Assembly: GCF_000003605.2 (NCBI RefSeq)
Contig: NW_003131855.1
Coordinates: forward strand, 5,442 to 34,158
DNA length: 28,717 nucleotides
Reading direction: 5' to 3'
Source: Saccoglossus kowalevskii
Lineage: Eukaryota; Hemichordata; Enteropneusta; Harrimaniidae
Below, piece by piece: positions 1,469 to 28,717 of this stretch. Each line of letters starts with the position of its first letter. The stretch's first letter is position 1. Under the pieces are notes generated by a model, which worked only from the letters and a program-made list of their open reading frames with translations, was not told the origin of the DNA and made no database searches. The position numbers were made by a program, and so were the translations under genes.

Positions 1469-1554
1469 CTTATGAACGCCTACAATGACGATAACTGATA
1501 ACACAGCGATGAAAATATACATGGACAACATCACGTAAAACACCACCTCAATAA
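1469..1554 (-). CDS. LAPTM/DUF4728-like tetraspan membrane protein, coding exon 3
   Basis: This 86-nt exon follows an acceptor with a pyrimidine tract (CTTTTACTCCAG, AG at 1556-1555). Its first two bases complete the Val codon started by the last G of exon 2; 28 codons then follow, ending in phase 0 at CATAAG|GTATGT (GT at 1468-1467). The product is IEVVFYVMLSMYIFIAVLSV followed by IVIVGVHK: about 25 hydrophobic residues, a clear second transmembrane helix, ending in a basic stop-transfer-like VHK. The phase agreement with exon 2 (1 then 2 nt) and exon 1 (0/0) is the main reason to believe the model. The next exon, expected to begin in phase 0 with the third helix, was not found in the remaining 1.47 kb. 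Confidence 0.68.
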
Positions 1555-1854
1555 CTGGAGTAAAAGATGATTTAGGGATTTAGAAATGCATGTGTGAAGA
1601 ATTGTGACTGGTTGTTATTCAATGTATTACGGAGATTACGGCAATATATTATCCACACTGTATTAAAGTAATCTCCCCACACACTATTCATGCTGTATTA
1701 CAGTAATTTTTTACACACACTCATTAATTAAAATGGAATCACAAAAATCAGCTTTTTGACTGTTTGACAGAGAGGTCTTCAAAACAAACCCGCGAGTTAA
1801 GCCTAATGAGTAAATTGAGCACTGTTTATGGATATAATCAGTCAAAGCATTTAA

Positions 1855-2770
1855 GAGATATGGCTCTAGAAGCCCAATCATTAAAACAAAATGGCCGCCA
1901 GTCAGCCATTTTGAATCCAATTTGAAAAATAAAATGACGTGCATCAGGAACCCGTAATGTCTAATGCATGTACCAATTTAAGTTTGAATGAAATCCATCC
2001 ATAAATGCTTGATATTTGATGATTTTTTAGCACAAAATTGACCACCATTTGGCCATTTTGAATAGATCGTCAAACCAATATATCTGTTTATCTATGACAT
2101 GATGTATAATGAATATTTAAAATTTGAATATAATCAGTCAAAACAAGTCTGAGATATGGGTCTAGAAGCCCATTCATTAAAACAAAATGGCCGCCAGACA
2201 GCCATTTTGAATCCCATCTGAAAAATAAATGATGTGCATCAGGAACCTGTAATGTCTAATATATGTACCAAGTTTGAACGAAATCCATCTATAAATGCCA
2301 GAAATGCTTGATATTTGATGATTTTTTTAGCACAAAAATGGCCACCATTTGGCCATTTTGAATAGGATTGTCAAACCAATATATCTGTCTATCTATGCAT
2401 GATGTATAATGAATATTTGAAATTTGAACATAATCAGTGAAAGCAAGTCAGAGAAATGGCACGAGAACCATATTCATTAAAACAAAATGGCCGCCAGTCG
2501 ACCATTTTGAATCTTATCTGAAAAAGGTCCCATAATGTCTAATGTATATACCAAGTTTGAACAAAATCCATCTGTAAACAGCCGAGAAATGCTTGATTTT
2601 TAGGATTTTTTAGCATAAAAATGGCCGCCATTAGGCCATCTTGAATCAGATCGTAAAACAAAATGATGTGCATCAAGGTTCTATAATGTCTAATGTATAT
2701 ACCAAGTTTAAACAAAATCCATCTGTAAACAGCCGAGAAATGCTTGATTTTGATGATTTTTAGCACAAAA
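1855..2770. repeat. Satellite-like tandem array, ~150-bp unit in ~300-bp dimers, intron 2
   Basis: This array lies in intron 2 of the membrane-protein gene. The core word CCATTTTGAAT or a close variant recurs at 1906, 2053, 2202, 2353, 2502 and 2636, giving steps of 147, 149, 151, 149 and 134 bp. Alternate units are more alike: gagatatgg..tctagaagcc starts near 1855, 2151 and 2451. This gives a higher-order period of about 296-300 bp with two diverged half-units. Each half carries an inverted pair AAAATGGC...GCCATTTT around a variable centre. Shared words include gcatcagg, taatgtctaat, accaagtttgaa, aaatccatc, agaaatgcttgat and gatgatttttagcac. The last unit is shorter and more diverged. Confidence 0.88.
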
Positions 2771-2897
2771 ATTAACATAACTGTTTGCAGGACAGACATA
2801 CAGCCACCAACTTCATGGTACTGAAAGATTTGTCACATTAGCAATGCAAAGGGACTGTCATTCATCATGAGGGTGCTATTTGCGTGTTTAGTCTCAC

Positions 2898-2979
2898 CTT
2901 GGTATGTATACACTACACCTTCCTGCTGATAGCAGATAGCATTGTACAAGTCAATAGCAATACAAATCATCGCAAATAC
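2898..2979 (-). CDS. LAPTM/DUF4728-like tetraspan membrane protein, coding exon 2
   Basis: This 82-nt exon starts in phase 0 after a pyrimidine-rich acceptor (TTATTTTTCAG, AG at 2981-2980) and ends in phase 1 at CAAG|GTGAG (GT at 2897-2896). It encodes VFAMICIAIDLYNAICYQQE followed by GVVYTYQ. Placed directly after exon 1, its first 15 or so residues complete a first transmembrane helix that begins near GSLASGIYTL. The polar, Tyr- and Gln-rich end would be the first extracytosolic or luminal loop. The exon sits between two clusters of a satellite-like repeat (1855-2770 and 3781-4345) yet contains none of it, which supports selection on the exon. The open frame runs further on both sides, but the extra residues lie past the splice sites and are probably not translated. 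Confidence 0.68.
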
Positions 2980-3277
2980 CTGAAAAATAATACAAAAGAT
3001 GCATAATATTATCACGTGTATCATATCTAGGTGTTTCCTGTTCCAATTTTGAAAGCCACCAAGTTGGTCATTGAATTCAACAAGTGATTAAGTGACATCA
3101 TTAAGATCCTCAGTAAGAACCTGACCTGATCAAACTTTTCTCTTTAATGATGTACATTTTCTGGTCTGTTAGGTAATATTTAACAAGCTAAAAATTATAC
3201 TGGTCCGAGCTGACTTAACATTTAGTGATCAGTAGTCTGCCTAAATCTGTATCATAATAGTAACACTACAAAGAATC

Positions 3278-3400
3278 CATCAGCCATTTTGAATCTCATC
3301 TGAAAAACAAAATTACATGCATCAAGGTTCAATGTATATACTAAATTTGAACAAAGTTCATCAATATATGAATATCTGGAACCGAAATCACAGAAATGCT
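3278..3400. repeat. Diverged single unit of the ~150-bp satellite-like repeat
   Basis: This stretch repeats, in order, words of the main array: cagccattttgaatctcatctgaaaaacaaaa, a gcatcaaggttc segment, aatgtatatactaaatttgaacaaa and cacagaaatgcttg. It lies in intron 1 between exon 2 and the second repeat cluster and is probably a dispersed monomer or remnant of a longer array. Confidence 0.7.
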
Positions 3401-3593
3401 TGCTTTACAATGTACAATGTATGTGTGGAGTTTAAATGTGAGCAGTTAGCATGTCTGAGATAAACGTTATTGTTAGGTGAACTTAATTTTTTTTTTCACT
3501 TGCGCCTCATAATGAAATAACCCAGAATAACAAGTCATTGAAAATGTCACAGTCCTCGTTAAATTTTTGAAAGTTTTCTTTGTGCTTGTCATA

Positions 3594-3715
3594 TTAAAGT
3601 GGAGGGGTTATCGCGAGCGTGTCCCTGAAATTTTAGTCCAAAGTGGCGTATACAACAGATTGTTTATTTACATCAAATTTGAACACGTGTTGAGTGACGA
3701 CCCCTCCGGTTTGAG
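3594..3715. mobile_element. Diverged TTAA miniature element with A-type ends and B-type body
   Basis: The left end is TTAAAGTGGAGGGGTTATC and the right end, read inward, is CTCAAACCGGAGGGGTCGTC; both resemble family A termini. The body (ggcgtatacaacagattg, tttatttacatcaaatttgaacacg, tgagtgacgac) matches family B. The right TTTAAA has decayed to TTTGAG. It is an old non-autonomous DNA transposon relic with no coding capacity. Confidence 0.7.
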
Positions 3716-3780
3716 ACATGGAAAAGAAAAACATAGATCACAAGTAAAAGCATGTCCAAGTTATCACATTTTAAACTAAC

Positions 3781-4345
3781 AAGATGGCCGCCAGTCTGCC
3801 ATATTTGATCAAATTGCAAATTGAATTGACATGTACATGTATCCAATTATGACATGCTAAATATCAATGAAAATTATACATGTGTGACATAGTAATATGG
3901 CCAAAAATAAAAACAGCCGTTATTTGGCCATTTTTGATCTGATTATGAAACAAAGTGACATGGATGATGTATGTGTCAAATATAAATGAAAATGGTACAT
4001 AAATCTTCAAAATTAGTAGTAAGGCCAAAAAGTCAGATAGCTGTCCATTGGCCTTCCTTGATCTGATTTTGAAATTAATTGTCATGGACATGTATACTAA
4101 CATGTATAAAGTATGTGCCAAATTTGAATGAAAACTGACAAAGCATGTCCAAGATACCACATTTAAAAAAAAAACAAGATGCCTGCCAGTCGGCCATCTT
4201 TTATCCAATTGCGACAGAAATTGTCATGGACATGTATCCTAACATGTATAATCTATGTACCAAGTTTGAATGAAAACTGACAAAGCATGTTCAAAATACA
4301 ACTTTTTCAAAAAACAAGATGGCTGCCAGTCAGCCATTTTTAATC
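3781..4345. repeat. Second satellite-like cluster, ~125-142-bp units, intron 1
   Basis: Five diverged units have cores at 3799, 3928, 4052, 4194 and 4334 (steps 129, 124, 142 and 140). They share aagatgg(c)cgccagtc.gcca, ttgatc.gatt.tgaaa, gacatgtat and tttgaatgaaaa words. The AAGATGGC/GCCATTTT inverted core links them to the 1855-2770 array, but the spacers differ, so this is a subfamily. The last two units are most alike, sharing gacaaagcatgt and a run of A before acaagatg. The open frame on the minus strand over 3864-4208 is a by-product of the repeat. Confidence 0.82.
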
Positions 4346-4914
4346 AAAAAACTCAGGACCACTGCAAGTTTGACATGTTATTTCAGGTTTTAGACTAGTG
4401 AACAAATTAAAAATTAAAAATTGCCTGATTTTATCCATTAGATCAATCAGTGAAATAATACATGTTTTAAGATGTTTATACATTTGTTCGGTGTCACTTT
4501 ACACAAAATAAATATTCATTTTTTATGCAAAAGTTAAAGGTTCTAAGAGGATTATCTGTGGTAATCGTGAGATTTAAGAACAATAAACATCATATGACAT
4601 TTAATTCTGCTGCCGGGGGTACAATGTGTAGGAGTCAGATGAAGAGTGTTTGATTAATCCCATGCCTTAAAGTTATATGTTTGAAAAATAAGATTCTTCT
4701 CAGTTATTGATGGATAAGTACGGAGGTCGTCGTGGCATGTATTTATGAGATTTGTTTGATAAACACGTCGATTTTTGCACAACCCACCGAGCACTACTAA
4801 CAAATCAATAAAACTACCAGTCTGCATGTAAAATCTGATATCTGGGCGAGATAAATGCATCGTTGATACCTATTACAGATCTGTGGTCTTATTATCAATG
4901 GTCATCCCTAGTAA

Positions 4915-5063
4915 TTTAAAGTGGGGAAGTCGTCACCTGCGCGTGCATCAGAAGACCATAGCGTGTCATTGTTTACTAACAAGCATCTAACCATGAGTCT
5001 TTGTGTTGTTATCGTCGCTTGGGAATTCCTGCATGTGCACAGGTGACAACCCTCCAGTTTTAA
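4915..5063 (-). mobile_element. Family A TTAA-flanked miniature inverted-repeat element
   Basis: This ~149-bp element in intron 1 is bounded by TTTAAAGTGGGGAAGTCGTC and its inverse (gacaaccctccagttttaa). The inner inverted stretch is GTCACCTGCGC/GTGCACAGGTGAC. Its body (tgtgttgttatcgtcgcttggg) is the reverse complement of the copy at 12545-12695. Flanking TTAA at both ends suggests a TTAA-targeting transposase such as piggyBac-like or Kolobok-like; that assignment is inference. Confidence 0.85.
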
Positions 5064-6639
5064 TTTTTTCGATTAAACATTGCATTCATAGAAACTGAGA
5101 AAGTAATGATGTATGGCGTGAATTCCCAAGATCAGATTGCACTTTGTTATGGTTTAGCTTATCTGAATATTTAAAGTCAGATGTACATGCGCCACGACAG
5201 ACATGTTGTTTTATATTACAACTATATAACGTCACAACTGATAATTTAAGATTATTTAGCAGGTATTTTCACATCTATTAAAATAGATTAATCAAAAAAT
5301 TAAATAGTTAATCAAAATATTGTAATTTAAAAGTGCTACCGGTATTTAATAATAGATTTGGATATATTCCACAGCCTTTTGAATATTTTTTGAATCATGG
5401 TTTTAGAGAAAATTGTAACAGAATGCCAAAAAAATGGGCAATCAGAGATGTACCAATTCTGATGAAAATAAGATGCACCATGATTAGTAGTGATTAAATG
5501 TCAATGGTCAATGACATTCCACGGTCCCATTATGTATTTACCAAACTCCATCACTAGCAGTGATCAAGGAGTGTGGTTATACATTTTCCTAAATAGTGCT
5601 TTGATAGAAATACCGGTAGTTGTTAATTAACATGACATGCACCTCTAATCCAATATGTTTTATACTGATCAAACTTTAATCCTATAAGCAAGCAAGTTTG
5701 TATGTTATCTTTTGATATTTGTTGTGAATTCTTTCCTCCAACCACCCAGCCAATCCAAGTGTTGAGACAGCCATAATTTGATAGGGATGTCAGGGATGGT
5801 CTAGGTCAATTTCCCCACTGGTGCCAAACCGTTCAGACATGGTGTTTGGCAAGTGCTAGTCAGCTTGTAATGACAACATGCTAAGCTACTTTTAGACAAT
5901 GTCTGAATTACATCTTTAAAACGCCCTGAGAACGTCTGGTAAAAGGTGTACAAAGCATTCAGGTCAATAAAAATGAGAGCAAAAGAACAAGTGCATGACA
6001 TTTAAAGAGCATTGATGGCATCAAGTCACACTATTTAGAAAAAACATCCAAATACGCATCAAGAAGTCACTGTTAATGACACAGTCACTGTTGCATTTAG
6101 GGGGAGGGGAAATAATCATGCCTAATATAAAGTAATATGACCAAAAAGTAAGATGGCTTTTATCCCATCACAAACTGATTTTTTTATATTCATGCAACTT
6201 TTGTATTCAATGTAAAGTGTATGTCTTCAGTATCGTAAACATATGCCAGCTTATTTGTTATGGCGTTACCCAATGACACTCTGTCTAACAATACTTACAT
6301 AGTGGGCAATTAAAGCACAAGTAAAACATGAACATGTACCAAGCAAGTGACTAACATATAATATATGTTAAGAACATACTTAGTGTCACAGGTAAAGTTT
6401 GCTCACACCCATAGTCACAACCTGTTGTATGAGCTAATATGCATCTCAGGAGGACTCACTTATGTTTATTAATTGTTTTGTAATATTAATTAGATTTTTT
6501 GACTATGAACATTTAATACAATCTACAAATAAACATAGGTATATATTTTATGATAATAAAACAAATTTTTTTGGAACACAAATCAAAATTTGACAAGTCA
6601 TTGTCAATGACACGTCCCCGTTCCGTTCATATTTGAGCG

Positions 6640-6840
6640 ACATATACATTCAAAGCAGATCATGACCGAAATGCACCTGCATATGTACAACACATTGTGC
6701 TAAATCTGAACAAAATCCATCCATGCATGACTGAGATCCGGTTCCGGAATTGTGAAAATACGTGATTTTGATGCATTTTCGGCCTTAAAATGGCCATCAT
6801 TCAACTATTGTTAAGCGGATCATGAAACAAAATATGTAGA
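6640..6840. repeat. Highly diverged copy of the satellite-like repeat
   Basis: The stretch contains tctgaacaaaatccatcca, actgagatc, gtgattttgatgcatttt, aaaatggccatcatt and gatcatgaaacaaaat. These match, in order, the accaagtttgaacaaaatcc, gcttgattttgatgattttt, aaaatggccgccatt and gatcgtaaaacaaaat words of the main array. It sits alone in intron 1. Confidence 0.6.
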
Positions 6841-7418
6841 TGCACACACAGTCCCTTAGTGATGTAAGTCCAATACATGCTAGAGGATATATATGTAAAG
6901 CCACATTATCGAAGACACGTATCAGTGTGTTGACATTCTGAAATCATATTCAGTCACTAAGACTAAGCTTAAAAGTAAATGTTTGGAGGGGGTTATTATT
7001 TTGTTTTTTAAATATATTTTTTGGACCACACAACATTGAATTTCACTGTTGTCTTTCCTACGTCTACTGACATAGATGTATAGTACATTTTACAACAGAA
7101 ACCATATTCAAAAGTTTGTGACTACATGACAGGGCTGTACAGACAAAATACTCATACATTAGTTTGTGGCTTATTAAAATCAAAATTCTTTTTAGAACAG
7201 CAATTTGAATCTGGTGAAACGCTTGGTACAGTTTAACCATGGTCAAAAAAGATATATTTACCAAGTAGCAATTATTACAAATAATTTATTAAATGTGCAA
7301 TTAATATTAAAACAAAAGCTGCATTTTTAATTGTACATGTACTTTCTATCAAATAACTATACATGGGGTAAATAACAGCTAGGAATTAATTTTCAGCCGT
7401 CTGCATGCCTAGTCCATG

Positions 7419-7438
7419 TGACCTATGACCTCTGACCT
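7419..7438 (-). promoter_or_regulatory. Triple DR1 nuclear-receptor-like element in intron 1
   Basis: Three perfect TGACCT hexamers at 7419-7424, 7426-7431 and 7433-7438 have single-base spacers. In gene sense this reads AGGTCA-G-AGGTCA-T-AGGTCA. Direct repeats spaced by one base (DR1) are the known binding form for RXR, HNF4 and COUP-type receptors. Function here is inferred; the sites themselves are exact. Confidence 0.55.
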
Positions 7439-9039
7439 ATTACACTGTGTTTATTCAAATGAATTCCGCAATCGCAATTATTCAGATGTACAAAATTTAC
7501 TGTCAAGAATAAAATATTGTAATCTAAATATTTTTTCATACATAAATAATTTCTGTCGGGACTATAATAGAATATGCCTAATGCTATGAAGTGCCCAATT
7601 CTAATGATAAGCAACCATGCGCAAAAAACAAAATTAATAAGCCTTGTTATTGGGCATTTGCACTGTAAATATTCCTTATCATTGTGGCAGTGGTTCAGAT
7701 CAGCGTTATAAACGATATGTAGCAAAATAATATTTAACCAAAAAGCATTGAACTGTTGCATCCTGCTGGATTTGACATTATTGTATAGGGTACTAATAGT
7801 GTTCTGCTTCAGTTTGGGCAATGTGAATTTTAAAATGAATTTCAATGTGAATAACCAGGCCATGTTTTGAGTCAATTTAAATCGGGGTTGATGACATTTA
7901 ATGTAATCGATTATTGATAAAAAGAGAGATCACATCACAAGAGATACTCTCAAAAACGTGCTTGTGACAGATTTCAACCCAAGAAAACTTTTAAAATGTT
8001 AAAACGTTACAAATAACATTTAACCGAAACACATATAGATTACGTGCTGAACATGAGACTGAACAATCTACAAGTGAACCAGTCAGAAGTGATTAGAACA
8101 GGTTTTTTACCTTTGATCAGGGGGCACATGCATGTATCCATGGTAACAAAATCAATGCATGTGATATAATAATCACAAAGCATCACACATTTGTATTTTC
8201 CAGGAAATCTATAATAAAGTACCGGTAGCATGTGACCATATCAAACAGGAAGTGTTCCAACAACTCTGACGTCTCATAGTGAAAACCACAGAGATTTTGT
8301 CATTGACATTACTCTGAATATTTTAAGATAACTGATTACATACTTTGTTTCAAAATATTGTTCTTAGACGTTGTCACATTGTTTGTATATGTAAATATGT
8401 CAGGATTGCAGACAGATTGACAACTGCGTTTTATATTGAAAAAAAAATATTTACAGGGATTTTATGGGAGAAAATGTTTTATATTCATATTTGAGAGAGA
8501 TAATCTCTAATCCTTGCAGGAACGCAAAGAAGGAATATTACATGAGAAAGTTTTTTTTTAATATTTGAAAGGGACATTCAAGTAAAACAAGTAAAATCTT
8601 GGTCACGTCACAGGTACGGCCAAGGGTTACAACATTTGATATCTTGGGAATAGAAGTCACAAAGAAACAAATCTTACATGAGTGCGCTTGAGGTACCTAC
8701 ATACAAAAAATAATGAGCTGTTTTCAAAAAGAAGTCAAAAATATCATTTTATACTAATAATGACAGAAATATTAAAACATTGAAGGTAATTTTACATTAC
8801 AAAGAAATGTGAGAGAAGTCCACACAGTACATGAAATCAAGCAATTCAAAAATATCACTTTTAACAAAAATTACAAAAAAAATTCTTCAAAATTACAACA
8901 TTTAAGATTTTGTCACATAATGAACAAATTTGAGAGAGGTACATATATACCAAGTATCAAAGCAATCAAACTTGTACTTTATACCACGAAAAAAAATAGG
9001 TAGGTTTTCAGTCGGGTAGAAAGACAAGAAATTACTTTT

Positions 9040-9047
9040 ATGCAAAT
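9040..9047 (+). promoter_or_regulatory. POU octamer ATGCAAAT
   Basis: An exact ATGCAAAT octamer lies in intron 1, about 1.2 kb inside the gene. The word is short and may be chance in AT-rich DNA. Confidence 0.2.
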
Positions 9048-9987
9048 TTGCCGTTTTCGGGCCTTTCATTTTGGCACTACGAATAATACTTTAATAGACG
9101 TCTGACAGACACAGAATCAATGGAACAGTTCAATTATTTCACAGAAGATTCTCATTTCGTACACCAATAACTATACATACCGCATTATTCGATGAACTTA
9201 TTAAAACGACAGAAATCTTGAGTAGAATAAAAACAAACGCTAATTTATTCATTCATAAATTGAAAAGTTTTTGACTTCTATTCCAAGAAAACTAAGGCTC
9301 GCATTTTTTGATTACGTCTGTTTTGAGTGAAAAAACTCAAAAAAGCCTATTTTCGAGAGAAACACACATACACTTCACTAGTTTGAGAAAAAACAATATT
9401 TTCACATGATTCACACACCTAGCTAACTATAAATATATAACATGTAGGTAGTCAAATTCCATCTTCACTGTGAAAATACAGGTTTGAATATAAGCACCCA
9501 CGAACCTGGGTCTCATCCTTAAAGGCAACCTCTGTAATATAATGCCAGAGGTATAGTCTTTGTTTTACAAGTGCCTGCAACGTGCTTTGGGGTTTCTGTG
9601 TTATCCTTGAACAAGGCAACATCATTTGCTCGATCCACTCATTATATCAATTACCATGAGTTCAACATGAATTGTTTGACATAAGTGCGTGTTTTATCAT
9701 TATTTTTGAAATCAGTGGAAAAAAACACAGGGGCTCACGATATAAGCACGTTTTGTTTGTGGGAGTATAAACGTGAATGGTATTTGGGTTAATTTGTTCC
9801 AGAAATGTAATCTATTATTTACAGTAAAAAACATCATCCCGCAATTGTTTAAAGTCTTTTTAGCTCACAATCCGGAGTACTGATCGCCAACGTTACTACT
9901 AAGTGCTTACATCGTTAGCCTCCGTGGTGAAAATATGTCAGACATGAAGGTGGTCACCGAACGTTGGTCAATACTGTTACACAATGT

Positions 9988-10003
9988 AGGTCAGGGTAGG
10001 TCA
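9988..10003 (+). promoter_or_regulatory. DR4 nuclear-receptor-like element near the 5' end of intron 1
   Basis: Two perfect AGGTCA hexamers (9988-9993 and 9998-10003) are separated by GGGT, the four-base spacing known for thyroid-receptor- and LXR-type heterodimers. It lies about 236 bp inside intron 1, in the somewhat CpG-richer zone around the promoter. A further ggtca at 9966-9970 lies close by. Confidence 0.5.
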
Positions 10004-10239
10004 ACATACGAACTTCTCTGAGTAAAATTAAGATCAGGAGCTCTCGGATTGCATACAATTAACAGTTAGAAAAATCCGACGACATGATAGCTGTTTGGAG
10101 TAGATGTCATGGATTTGTTTGATAAATACTGATCGGCAACATGTAAGCGCGCGGATTTGATCAAATCATTTTGACCACAGTCACTATTCTAGTAGAGGAC
10201 TGTGTTTTGACATACAATATTACAGTGAGTATGACTTAC

Positions 10240-10314
10240 CAATGTGTAAATTCCGCTTGCTAACGATCCTGATCTCACGTTATTCCAACAGCAACATTGT
10301 CGTAAAAGAGCCAT
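10240..10314 (-). CDS. LAPTM/DUF4728-like tetraspan membrane protein, coding exon 1
   Basis: This is the first coding exon of a spliced minus-strand gene. It encodes 25 residues, MALLRQCCCWNNVRSGSLAS then GIYTL, and ends in phase 0 at an ideal donor (TTG|GTAAGT, GT at 10239-10238). The ATG has a good context (GACATGG, purine at -3 and G at +4). Joined to the exons at 2898-2979 and 1469-1554 it gives one open frame: a Cys-rich cytosolic leader, a first membrane helix running from exon 1 into exon 2, a short loop, and a second helix. The pattern CC...VR.G....G.Y.L resembles the N-terminus of lysosomal LAPTM4-type and insect DUF4728 tetraspan proteins, so an endolysosomal or plasma-membrane location is inferred only. 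The C-terminal half lies beyond the left edge. I am confident of the gene and less sure of the family. Confidence 0.68.
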
Positions 10315-10440
10315 GTCGAAGACGAAGACAGGTTGTGAGAAATCAGGTGCAGCACCGATGTTATTTATCAGGAAAATGCATCTTCTTATGCATTGAGAGT
10401 GATACTGATCACAGACTTTGACGTCAGTCTATGCTAATGA
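10315..10440 (-). promoter_or_regulatory. Putative core promoter and 5' UTR of the membrane-protein gene
   Basis: Upstream of the ATG at 10314, in gene sense, there is a full CRE palindrome TGACGTCA (10426-10419) and a TATA-like GATAAATAA (10371-10363), leaving a 5' UTR of about 20-30 nt if transcription starts some 30 bp past it. An octamer-like ATGCTAAT lies at 10431-10438. The frame of the ATG stays open for some distance upstream but without an in-frame ATG, which favours 10314 as the start. The start site itself is not visible. Confidence 0.4.
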
Positions 10441-12544: not shown

Positions 12545-12695
12545 TTTAAAGCGGAGGGGTCGTCACCTGCGCACGCGCGGGAATTGAGACCCAAGTGACG
12601 ATAACAACACATGCTAAAAACGCAAAGGCTGTTTGTAAATAATGACACGCTAAGGCCATCTGACGCATGAGCAGGCGACGACTCCCCCGCTTTAA
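12545..12695 (+). mobile_element. Family A TTAA-flanked miniature inverted-repeat element
   Basis: This 151-bp element has TTTAAAGCGGAGGGGTCGTC at the left and the inverse TTAAAGCGGGGGAGTCGTCG at the right. Inverted repeats extend to CACCTGCGCACGCG on the left against GCCTGCTCATGCGTC on the right. The body has gaattgagacccaagtgacg and ataacaacacatgctaaaaa, shared with copies at 4915-5063 and 13722-13881. It has no coding capacity; the antisense open frame across it is an artefact. Confidence 0.88.
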
Positions 12696-13602: not shown

Positions 13603-13727
13603 TTTAAAGGGCGGCAGTCGTCCTGTTCGATGTGAGACTCATAGCGACGTATACAACGCGTGCAAAATACATTGTCTATTTACATGAAATTCGAACACGC
13701 GCTGCGCGACGACCACCGCGCTTTAAA
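13603..13727 (+). mobile_element. Family B TTAA-flanked miniature inverted-repeat element
   Basis: This 125-bp element has ends TTTAAAGGGCGGCAGTCGTC and, inward from the right, TTTAAAGCGCGGTGGTCGTC. The body is gttcgatgtgagactcatag, cgacgtatacaacgcgtgca, aaatacattgtctatttaca and tgaaattcgaacacgcgctg. Its right TTTAAA (13722-13727) is also the left end of the adjoining family A copy. It serves as the best-preserved reference for family B in this window. Confidence 0.88.
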
Positions 13728-13881
13728 GCAGGAGGGTCGTCACCTGCGCACGCGCGGGAATTGAGTCCCAAGCGACGATAACAACACACGCTAAAACGCA
13801 AAGACTCAAGGGTAGACACTTGTTTGTAAAAAAATGACACGCTATGACCATCTGACGCGTGCGCAGGTGACGACTTCCCCG
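13722..13881 (+). mobile_element. Family A element, right end displaced by an inserted 397-bp element
   Basis: It starts TTTAAAGCAGGAGGGTCGTC and its body matches the 12545-12695 copy (gaattgagtcccaagcgacg, ataacaacacacgctaaaac). The right arm, gcgcaggtgacgacttccccg, stops at 13881 where another element begins. The missing end (cttccccgctt) resumes at 14279-14289 after the insertion, so this copy is split. Confidence 0.85.
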
Positions 13882-16925: not shown

Positions 16926-17059
16926 TTAAAGCGCGGTGGTCGTCGCGCGGCGCGTGTTCAATTTCATGTAAATAAACAATGTATTTTACACGCGTTGTAT
17001 ACGTCGCTATGAGTCCCATATCGAAAGAGGACGCGGCACGACGAACTGTCGCCCTTTAA
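16926..17059 (-). mobile_element. Family B TTAA-flanked miniature inverted-repeat element
   Basis: The ends are TTAAAGCGCGGTGGTCGTCG and, inward from the right, TTAAAGGGCGACAGTTCGTC. The body (atttcatgtaaataaacaat, cgcgttgtatacgtcgctat, gagtcccatatcgaa) is the reverse complement of the copy at 13603-13727. TTAA bounds both sides. Confidence 0.88.
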
Positions 17060-19590: not shown

Positions 19591-20772
19591 ATGGGCGACC
19601 GAAAGGCGGCGGCCAAGGAGAGGTCGCAATCGGTCTACTCGGCTAACTGGAAAGAAGATTGTCTGCTACAGAGGAAACTGAAAGAACTTGACAGCTCTGA
19701 GAAAAAGGTGATTCACGGCATCGAGATTGATCAAAGAGTTGTCAACAAGAAATTTCAACAGAAGCTGTACCGATCACGTTTGGCGTACGCTCGCATGACC
19801 GGTAACCGAGAGAAGCTGAAGGAATTACTGCAGAAAGACGGTTACCGGTTCAACACCAACGTCAGTGGGGACGACGAGTTCACCCTGAAATTGCCGAGGG
19901 CGTCGAGTGCCCCGACGATGCGGTCAAAGAGGTTCGGCAACCAATTTCCCGAGAGACCAGCGACAACGGCCATCAGTAATCCACATTCAAAGACTCTTGG
20001 TGTTGACAACTTAGGTTCAAGAGACCGTAGGCCAAGAAGTTGTGTATCTATCGCATCCAGATCTGTGGCCCCTCGCCCATTAACCGCAGCGGTGCCGGAA
20101 AAGACGAGAAACGGACGCATGTTGGAGGAAGAGGATGATCTGGACATGACGATAGACGAAACTGACAGCGACTCTGATGACGGCGACGAAGAATCCGACG
20201 ACGACCACAACCATGGCCAGAGGGGACGGAAAAAATCTACCGCGAAACGTACGCGATTCAGCGTAAGTAAAATGGAACCACGGCCTAAAACCGCCGTCGG
20301 GTTTGTTACTAAGAACAGTCACCCAATACACAGACCCAAAACAACGAACTCAATAACTAAAACTAAAGTATCTGGCGGACTTTTTGACGACGAAAAGCCG
20401 CCGACGTTGTTGGAAGTCCATTACGCGAAAGTAAAAGCCGCAAATTTTCCACGGAAAGTGGACACATTTATTCGATCGGTAAAATATCTAGTGACTGGGG
20501 ACGCCGTTGATTATTACACATTACGGCTGGTGGAAAATGCCGACCGTGGAAGTAAAAATAAACTTAGCGTTGACTGTGTTGAGAGCGTAGCAGAAAAGCG
20601 AGACGCTTTGCGCAGCACTGGCGATTTAAATGCCCGAAATTTGACTATGCGAACTGTGAGTATGGAGTACGAACAACACGATCACATGCTCCACCGTATT
20701 GACATGGACGGAGAACTTTCTGAAGAATGTAACACAAACGACGTGGAAATGGAAGATTTCAACGAACAGTAG
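19591..20772 (+). CDS. Intronless RPxT-motif low-complexity protein, 393 aa, family unknown
   Basis: The ATG at 19591 has a good context (AGTATGG) and follows an in-frame TGA at 19558; the frame ends with TAG at 20770. Residues about 15-85 are charged and rich in Lys, Glu, Leu and Arg (QRKLKELDSSEKK, NKKFQQKLYRSRLAYARM, REKLKELLQKDGYRF), probably helical or coiled coil. Residues 100-255 are basic and Ser/Pro/Thr-rich, with RPAT (122), RPRS (147), RPLT (162), RPKT (231) and RPKT (248). A block at 179-208 is almost all Asp, Glu and Ser, followed by a basic RGRKKSTAKRTR (211-222) that could be a nuclear-localisation or microtubule-binding patch. Residues 265-315 look more ordered (LLEVHYAKVKAANFPRKVDT), and the C-terminus is acidic. 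There are no signal peptide or membrane helices. I do not recognise the family; RPxT-rich sequence occurs in some cytoskeletal and ciliary proteins, but that is only a hint. Confidence 0.85.
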   Translation: MGDRKAAAKERSQSVYSANWKEDCLLQRKLKELDSSEKKVIHGIEIDQRVVNKKFQQKLYRSRLAYARMTGNREKLKELLQKDGYRFNTNVSGDDEFTLKLPRASSAPTMRSKRFGNQFPERPATTAISNPHSKTLGVDNLGSRDRRPRSCVSIASRSVAPRPLTAAVPEKTRNGRMLEEEDDLDMTIDETDSDSDDGDEESDDDHNHGQRGRKKSTAKRTRFSVSKMEPRPKTAVGFVTKNSHPIHRPKTTNSITKTKVSGGLFDDEKPPTLLEVHYAKVKAANFPRKVDTFIRSVKYLVTGDAVDYYTLRLVENADRGSKNKLSVDCVESVAEKRDALRSTGDLNARNLTMRTVSMEYEQHDHMLHRIDMDGELSEECNTNDVEMEDFNEQ

Positions 20773-25032: not shown

Positions 25033-26606
25033 CTACACTTTAGATTGAGAAACGAGTCGAAATTTCTTATGAAAACCCATTGTTAGTCATTAACCTCAAA
25101 TTGTGTAGAAACTACATTTCACAAATCGTACAGTAAGCTCACGACTTTGCTTTTGCCAGGAGTGAGATAACCCATATCGATTTGAAGACTTATTAACAGT
25201 TTGAAAAAATACCGAGGGAAGAATAGCCCCCCATAAACCAATTGAAGGGGTGATTTACGCTCAGTTGAGGGGGCGTGTCGTAACAGAAAGTGCGTAGAAT
25301 AGTAACGCGACGATACGTCCAGGGTTCAGTGCATCGGCACTATACCCCATACGTCACTGAATATCCCATTAATAAAACTCAAACATTTCTGTCCAATTAT
25401 TCGAGTTGCCGTTGTAACGTGTCTTACAGAATTATTACCTATATATATCGTTCTAGCATTCACGACAGGAAATTGGTTAATGCTTTTATTTTGAACAAAT
25501 ATTAACTCCATAAAATTGAAAATTCCAGCTTAATAATATCTTATGCCATTTCACGCATTGTTTACCCTGGGCCTCATATATACTCACTCCGTATTCCACG
25601 CACGAACTCATTTATCGTTTTAAATCATCGAAAACAAAAAAATCAATACGGTTCGTTTATGCTAACACAACATCGAAGTTTAATTTCGGCACACACAAGA
25701 AATATTAATTTAATTCGATTCTGTACGGTGCATACACATCTAATTTTATATATGAATAATATTTCACCCACGTCTAATTCAGCAACCAAAGGCGGTCACT
25801 CAAACAGGACAAATCGTGCACACAGTAAGGGTCAATCTGAGGTCACGCGAGGTACGTTTTAAAAGTAGAGCCCTTGGCGTTTGACGTAAAAGCATATACC
25901 ATGTCGCCGAATATCGTGCGGTGACCCGAAATAGCGTGGCTGACTTGCACTTAATCACCCTCACTTTAAAATCTTAATCATCATTTTTCGAAATGCAGTG
26001 ATATTTCACGGAACGCAGAAGACCAATTACCATCCCGGTGAGCTATTGTGGGGGATAACAGCAACCGGACAATGCTTTCGACGACGATAATAAGGTGTGC
26101 CTGATCTTTGCAACCTGCGTCAGTGCCCGGAAGGTTGGTAAACAAATCAAACTGAGTGATTCAAGCATTATGAACACCACGTTTTAATTTCTTCTTGAAA
26201 GAGTTCAATTTAGTGTGCCCGGTTTTTAATGGAGACCATTAAGCAACAATTCAGTTTTATTTTCATGAAGTAATAAACAAACTAACCCGGAGTCAAACGC
26301 ATGACGTCACCGATTTTGTTTTCATGTTCGTCTCAAGGATAAATTACTGTCTCGTGGGATTGTTGTTACGTGCCTTAACGCTGTTAATGCACACTCACGT
26401 AGTGATTTGTAGTATCTCACAATTATTTCATTTTCCTGTTATACGATTCAAGCTCTTTTTAAGTGTGTTCAAATAAACTTAATCTATGTACATTGTATCT
26501 GTAACAGCGGTGTATACCCTGAACTGAACAGTCTATGGCACACCGACCGTTTAAAATGGCCCGTACGTAGAGATTTATAACGATTATGTTACAGTCCTCG
26601 GCAACT
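25033..26606. other. Non-coding stretch
   Basis: No supported gene. It contains an exact CRE palindrome TGACGTCA at 26302-26309 inside atgacgtcaccg. Other frames are short and unremarkable. Confidence 0.35.
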
Positions 26607-26712: not shown

Positions 26713-28717
26713 TCTGTAAACATTTTCTAAGGTATATGGTACAACAGAAAGTTCACACTATAATATTTAATACGGACTAGGATTAACACATGATGATATG
26801 TTTTGGTTTTAGCGGGGTCACACCGCCATCATTATGACGCGATTCAACAGGTGGTTGTTATATCGAAGTTCAATGTAGACCAAACAGCAATGACAACGAC
26901 AGCCTACACTGTGACATTGACATTTTTGACAAGAAAGAGAAAACAAACTCATTATGACAGTACAAATTTAGATAAACACTAAAAGTGACCCGTTTTGAAA
27001 CATGGCAGTGTACTTATCTAACTCAACATTTCGCGTCCGTGCTGCATTCCAGAGACATGGCGTGTACACGCTGGACACTTACAACGTCTGTCTTCCGAAA
27101 ACGTCGCTGATTGTCAAGTTCAGATTACGAACGCCGTCGACGCCCCAAACATCACCGCGATACTACAATCATGTCGATTTACCACACCAATCAATTCGAT
27201 GCTCTAAATGACATGCATTTTTTACAAGAGTGTGTGTTCGTTGGGTTCATCGCTGGTGTGTTGGCTCATTATTATTCGATTGTCAACGTTTGAATCGTTT
27301 GAAATGTTGAATTACTCGGTAATAATGACGAACAAGTAGAACATGCAGGACATGGTGCATTAATGAGATAGAGTACATTGGTACTCAGTGGGAACGTATT
27401 GGGTGGAACGCGTTGGCTTAGTTTGGAAATAAACATCACCTGTCAATTTAATTGTTAGTGTGTCATTTATACGTGTTTACCGTCCGTCTATTGGGTGACG
27501 TCAAATACTAAAGTATTTTTTCTCCCATGGGGCGGGCTTAACAACGATAATTCTATGGCAGTGCTATAATCTTTTCGAACTATCGCCGTATATCGCTTGG
27601 CTGCACTTGACAGCAGTGGTAAAAAATCTCTTGAAGCAAAACGATTTCACAGTTTTGCGACCAGTCAACTTGATTTCGCAGTTGTGCGTCCAATTTTCCG
27701 GCATGGTAAGCACGCCGTAATAGATTCAGAAAAGCCAATTATAAAACTGACAAAGTTGCCGAGGAGTGTCGTAAGTTCTTTTTCAATGTTACTGCGTCGC
27801 ACGCTCCATTTCCGGGTGAAATGTGCGTTAATTAAAAAAATATAAAGCCCCTTCACCAGTCTAAATTTCGAGACCCAATGTGAATGCTACGGCATTTGTA
27901 CGTGTCGGTCGTGAAGGTGGCATTATTATGCGAATGTTCTCTTATAGTCTATTGTGACTAGGAAGAAAGAATTCTATTTAAGGCAGTCGACCTGAAGGGA
28001 ATATACAGTGAATCGTGGAATAAAAGACGAATTCCGCGGGTGTTGTTTATTATCGGATGAACGAGCATGTACCTTCTGTCATAGCAAATTGACTATCGTT
28101 ATCAGGCCGGTGCTAGTCACCTAGCTATTGAACGCCATGGTCACAGAATCGCTACTTTAATTATAAGACAAATTTGAGATTTTTAATGTCGAATGGTGCT
28201 TTTATTGACAAGAAGACAGTTAGGCAACGGATAACTTGTCCACACACAATGCCACATACCAAGTAGGGAATGGTGAAGTCAGAGCGCTACAATTGTATAA
28301 CGTGAGCAATGTCATATACACCAACTCTGAGAAATTAAATCACTAAATTAAATTAACTTGTTTAACTGCGAATTGAAAAGTGCTCATCCGTGATATCGAG
28401 CAAATAGCCCTAGGCAGTGGAACACGGTGGTAGTTTAATTATAAGTGGAATTACATATCTAGTGAGTTTGAAAGTGGCAGTGATGCGCGCGAAAGCAGAT
28501 CCGAGGAAACTCCACTACGATCGTAAACCAGAATTAAACTGGCCATCCTGACGAGTTATTATTGTCCGTGTTTTCAATTGGCGTCAAATGATTCACAATT
28601 GTTCGTGGATTTACCTGAAAGGTCAGCCTATTGTCAATACACATTGCGAGGCATACCAAATTACAGAAATATGTTCACAGTATTGTTCAATGGTGGGCTG
28701 ATGGTGCCAGTAGTGAA
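26713..28717. other. Non-coding to the right edge, with a promoter-like cluster
   Basis: I see no convincing exon. The motif cluster at 27490-27537 might serve a gene lying to the right of the window or an unseen first exon. Frames at 27002-27293 and 27597-27845 have no recognisable features. Confidence 0.35.
27490..27537 (+). promoter_or_regulatory. Promoter-like cluster: inverted CCAAT, CRE and GC box
   Basis: ATTGG (27490-27494), TGACGTCA (27496-27503) and GGGGCGGGC (27529-27537) occur within 48 bp, a grouping typical of animal promoters. A CTATAATC lies about 25 bp further. No coding exon could be joined to it. Confidence 0.35.

Follow-up and report, generated by a model that had tools for sequence, protein, structure and literature searches.

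The window, by which we mean the whole 28,717-nt stretch of DNA analysed, carries on its minus strand a proposed chain of three short coding exons, which we read directly and found to have GT/AG flanks and compatible phases (slashes below mark exon borders). The proposed first coding exon, exon 1 (10240–10314, 75 nt), supplies 25 codons (MALLRQCCCWNNVRSGSLASGIYTL), with its ATG in the context GACATGG, and ends in phase 0 at the donor TTG/GTAAGT. Proposed intron 1 (2980–10239) is a GT-AG intron of 7260 nt with tandem repeats inside. Exon 2 (2898–2979, 82 nt), bounded by the acceptor TTTTTCAG/G and the donor AAG/GTGAGA, leaves 1 nt and encodes the remainder of a first hydrophobic helix and a short loop. 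After a proposed intron 2 of 1343 nt (1555–2897), which holds a 300-nt tandem array (1834–2659), exon 3 (1469–1554, 86 nt) takes up the remaining 2 nt and ends in phase 0; it encodes a second hydrophobic helix and lies between the acceptor CTCCAG/T and the donor AAG/GTATGT.

Joining exons 1–3 gave 243 nt, or 81 codons without a stop, and both other frames of the joined sequence contain stops. Direct reading and joining thus bore out the three exons, consensus splice sites and matching phases proposed in an earlier, sequence-only reading; the frame it had put at 79–80 residues is open as stated, but is 81 residues long. The same reading held that no exon is visible as a long open frame. Exon 2 in fact sits within an 84-residue stop-to-stop frame (2833–3087), although the window contains 28 such frames 80 or more residues long, so that as a single frame exon 2 is undistinguished rather than invisible.

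Kyte-Doolittle means over 19 residues peaked at 2.08 (residues 18–36) and at 2.72 (residues 60–78 and 61–79) of the 81-mer, in agreement with the two transmembrane helices claimed previously. The leader contains the motif CCC. Arginines precede helix 1, acidic residues lie between the helices and His-Lys follows helix 2, a charge pattern compatible with a cytosolic N terminus like that of LAPTM4A, which, according to passages of PMC13170719, spans the membrane four times and has its termini in the cytosol.

Candidate fourth exons and family profiles

A continuation of the chain was sought by listing the phase-0 acceptors in bases 1–1468, splice sites being scored here and throughout, as were splice sums, with weight matrices. 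Eleven tails from the window were added to exons 1–3 and scanned against Pfam together with the read-through of the exon 3 donor, six tails of at most 9 residues being left out. No convincing exon 4 emerged from these bases: in most cases the acceptor is weak, or the frame runs into a stop and offers no donor. Two unproven candidates, both on the minus strand, were kept in view. One (1028–1115, 88 nt) is lysine-rich and fits in phase, with an acceptor score of 0.2 and a donor score of 3.3. The other, an alternative terminal exon (847–954, its end placed by counting 35 codons and the stop), adds a third hydrophobic stretch behind an acceptor scoring 1.3. The strongest acceptor, at 1214 (score 3.7), was rejected as a start of exon 4 because a stop follows after only 16 codons; the 590–687 tail has the best donor among the tails, yet gave no Pfam match. 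Adding the 1028–1115 tail raised the NCBIfam mtp match described below, and the 847–954 and 1417 tails, both terminated by a stop with no donor scoring at least −1, raised a match to DUF7027.

The sequence-only reading had likened the peptide to LAPTM4/DUF4728 proteins and pointed to the Mtp and DUF4728 profiles for comparison. Even with E values of up to 10 admitted, the 81-mer found no match in Pfam, and so matched neither; the longer constructs fared no better, Pfam Mtp being absent from every scanned construct of the chain and DUF4728 (PF15860) likewise at E up to 10. One of 38 control peptides from shuffled DNA did match DUF4728 (E 1.1). In the part of the literature searched that mentions DUF4728, the domain is named in a list.

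NCBIfam reported two matches for the 81-mer, small_MgtS (E 0.062, one helix) and TIGR00799 mtp, the latter aligning residues 4–76 to model positions 5–80 of 258 (E 1.3, 8.6 bits). With candidate exon 1028–1115 attached, the TIGR00799 match improved to E 0.068 and 12.7 bits. These scores (8.6–12.7 bits) do not reach the cut-off of 181.3 bits, a full score not being expected of a partial peptide. The 1028–1115 construct also matched six other NCBIfam families beside mtp, the best of these, the unrelated ExoX (E 0.0031), ranking above it. The mtp profile was not reported with the 847–954 tail, for exons 2–3 alone, or when exon 1 was swapped for either of two others. Nor was it reported for any of 38 two-helix control peptides derived from shuffled DNA or any of 30 block-shuffles of the 847–954 construct, the last being a weak control since the unshuffled construct has no mtp match either.

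TIGR00799, 'Golgi 4-transmembrane spanning transporter', represents the LAPTM/Mtp family of LAPTM4A, LAPTM4B and LAPTM5, and the weak match places the N-terminal leader and first two helices found here in register with it. The resemblance of the Cys-rich leader to DUF4728 proteins is one that we presume. LAPTM/Mtp proteins have four or more helices, whereas exons 1–3 encode two in a partial peptide, and the loop between these two is presumably short by LAPTM standards. The C-terminal tails of LAPTM proteins bear PY motifs and lysosomal sorting signals, and the peptide here differs in ending short of the C-terminal region in which one would look for PY motifs. LAPTM5 carries PY motifs according to a passage of PMC13170719.

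The best Pfam match was obtained with exons 1–3 plus the 847–954 tail, residues 25–110 of which aligned to positions 11–92 of 100 of DUF7027 (PF22954) with E 1.3e-4 and 22.2 bits, this best score falling short of the gathering score of 27 bits. DUF7027 was reported in 6 of 15 constructs of exons 1–3 plus a tail; the 15 include three artificial control tails, all of which failed to match. By tail, E was 1.3e-4 (847–954), 2.9e-4 (1417) and 0.0088–0.043 (the other four, with 0.0088 for candidate exon 1028–1115), values below 0.001 requiring the addition of one or other of two unproven fourth exons. The family was not reported for exons 1–3 alone, for exons 1–2 (44 residues) or for exons 2–3 alone, and the 847–954 tail by itself matched nothing in Pfam. 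When that tail was kept and exon 1 removed, DUF7027 still scored E 2.5e-4 and 4.2e-4; as far as profile scores go, the match with the 847–954 tail does not need exon 1.

Unrelated Pfam families scored nearby, 7tm_1 (E 0.0037) ranking above DUF7027 in the 1028–1115 construct and DUF6796 reaching E 0.0025 in the 847–954 construct. None of the 38 shuffled-DNA peptides matched DUF7027, and one of 30 block-shuffles of the 116-residue 847–954 construct did so, with E 0.081. Judged on these comparisons, the DUF7027 signal lies above composition and below cut-off, and its strongest form depends on an unproven fourth exon. DUF7027, which the sequence-only reading did not name, is a better sub-threshold match than NCBIfam mtp; the literature searched made no mention of DUF7027 or PF22954.

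Alternative first exons and possible chance assembly

Among the 1873 GT sites of the minus strand, 14, 1 and 11 outscore the donors of exons 1, 2 and 3, respectively; the acceptors of exons 2 and 3 are outscored by 6 and 51 of 1226 AG sites. Support for the chain rests mostly on exons 2 and 3; of the three, exon 1, with its Cys leader, is the one most open to doubt. Four other ATG-to-donor exons could take its place as first exon, each joining exon 2 in phase and giving a splice sum of 23.9, against 23.4 for the chain under study; three of them are ATGs that share a donor after 12567 and the fourth lies at 4937–4969. Exons 2–3 might accordingly belong to a real membrane-protein gene whose N terminus comes from another first exon, or from extra exons in intron 1, so that the Cys-rich LAPTM-like leader would not be in the protein. 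That DUF7027 was still matched with a swapped first exon and the 847–954 tail (E 0.0011) is consistent with such an arrangement. Three of the four alternatives, however, overlap a repeat (12545–12619, with a second copy, 92% alike, at 13722–13796), and NCBIfam mtp was reported in two of three constructs with exon 1 and in none of three without it. The ATG of exon 1 also lies in a good start context. We regard a wrong first exon as unlikely and favour 10240–10314, on its start context and on its N-terminal register with NCBIfam mtp, weak as that match is.

Chains of splice-like sites may also arise by chance, and their frequency was estimated from dinucleotide-preserving shuffles of the minus strand. 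With thresholds set just under the weakest sites of the chain, 19 of 600 shuffles contained any chain and none a two-helix chain (1 and 0 in an initial 100 shuffles), and the real DNA contained six chains on the minus strand, all six with exon 3 and five with exon 2, and none on the plus strand; as these thresholds were picked after the chain was known, the chance figures are optimistic. Stricter thresholds (6.5 and 3.5), which were tried first, yielded no chain on either strand and excluded the chain under study itself. Under looser ones, the real minus strand yielded 53 chains, of which 14 had two helices, and the real plus strand 173, of which none did; shuffled strands averaged 57. Under these looser thresholds, a splice sum of at least 23.4 was attained by some chain in 121 of 1000 shuffles and by a two-helix chain in 3 of 1000; these figures, too, are optimistic for the reason just given. 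Splice strength alone is thus unremarkable, and in combination with two helices it is unusual.

These figures bear on the view that splice-like sites and hydrophobic codons came together by chance in AT-rich non-coding DNA. Such DNA easily encodes hydrophobic residues; some two-helix chain, of any splice sum, appeared at the loose thresholds in 124 of 600 shuffled strands, no family cut-off was reached, and the original reading was free to search for chains of this kind. Codon usage takes neither side: measured against a 393-aa frame in the same window (19591–20772), the synonymous codon use of the joined frame was equalled by 30% of 2473 random open stretches and surpassed by the frame shifted one base, and is uninformative. 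What speaks against chance is that splice sum and helices were equalled together in only the 3 of 1000 shuffles, and that the DUF7027 match beats both of its controls, the shuffled-DNA peptides and the block-shuffles. We hold a chance assembly to be quite unlikely.

Other searches added little. Exon GC is slightly over that of the surroundings, 18–27% of nearby windows being equally high. Prokaryote genome contigs and viral contigs, where an animal gene is hardly expected, held no relatives, their 256 and 23 pattern matches, respectively, not being upheld by tblastn. The best match of the peptide to a solved structure had E 0.23. Rfam and tRNA scans returned nothing, and ten other frames of the window, compared with Pfam, gave nothing near cut-off.

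A decayed copy that kept its first exons and lost its 3′ part would explain the lack of a convincing further exon in bases 1–1468, but we consider such a pseudogene fragment very improbable, as its 81 codons show no stop or frame break, its introns argue against a retrocopy and the remaining exons may simply lie past base 1.

A putative multi-pass membrane protein

Taken together, the open spliced frame, the high-ranking splice sites, the two hydrophobic segments and the collinear but weak profile matches are best explained if the three exons form the 5′ coding portion of a single, unremarkable intron-containing gene whose product is a small multi-pass membrane protein. We hold this reading to be moderately probable; the layout of the gene suggests that its source is an animal, or at any rate a eukaryote rich in introns. 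The start of a gene for a multi-pass membrane protein, as first suggested, accordingly remains the best account of the splice and hydropathy evidence, whereas none of the families named for it is confirmed. With its LAPTM-like layout, the protein may be related to the lysosomal LAPTM family. On profile scores we claim no membership in LAPTM, DUF4728 or DUF7027, as no family cut-off of Pfam or NCBIfam was reached.

If the gene is as we favour, the N terminus would lie on the cytosolic side together with the Cys cluster and arginines that it bears, and the helix split by intron 1 would enter the membrane. The short acidic loop (residues ∼41–55) would then be luminal, the second helix would return across the membrane, and additional helices may be encoded by exons within or past bases 1–1468. 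By analogy with its LAPTM-like layout, from which an endolysosomal sorting role is drawn, the protein would act as a LAPTM-type tetraspan in the endosome/lysosome membrane, binding and sorting partner proteins or lipids.

A more specific proposal, which we find doubtful, is that the gene represents an undescribed branch of LAPTM-like tetraspans, one that falls between the profiles of Mtp/LAPTM and DUF7027 without reaching either cut-off and is marked by a short loop between the helices and, behind helix 2, a lysine-rich segment. Unless the sub-threshold matches do mark such a separate branch, ideas about the family would be unchanged. If true, our preferred reading of an ordinary spliced gene would add one more multi-exon tetraspan gene to an AT-rich, repeat-bearing, animal-like genome, and would indicate that splice phase and hydropathy can reveal short coding exons where single frames show nothing.

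TGACGTCA sites in the window and tandem arrays in the proposed introns

Perfect TGACGTCA sites were found at three positions in the window (10419-10426, 26302-26309 and 27496-27503), against a mean expectation of 0.44; three sites were reached in 3 of 100 shuffles. On the minus strand, the first of these precedes the start codon of the proposed exon 1 (10240-10314) by ~105 nt. Both proposed introns of this three-exon chain contain a tandem array: 1.9 copies of a 142-nt unit in intron 1 (4077-4342), and 2.8 copies of a unit of ~300 nt in intron 2 (1834-2659).

A 393-residue open frame

An ATG-initiated frame on the plus strand (19591-20772), starting MGDRKAAAKERSQ..., runs for 393 residues without interruption; no open frame in the window is longer. 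Its product is charged, and searches of Pfam, NCBIfam and solved structures returned no family above cut-off.

Inverted and dispersed repeats

Two 66-nt arms (13626-13691 and 16960-17025), 94% complementary and spaced 3268 nt apart, form an inverted repeat that could represent the ends of a mobile element. A 75-nt element, present in two copies 92% alike (12545-12619 and 13722-13796) and in a third, weaker copy (3593-3667; 61%), is perhaps a dispersed repeat.
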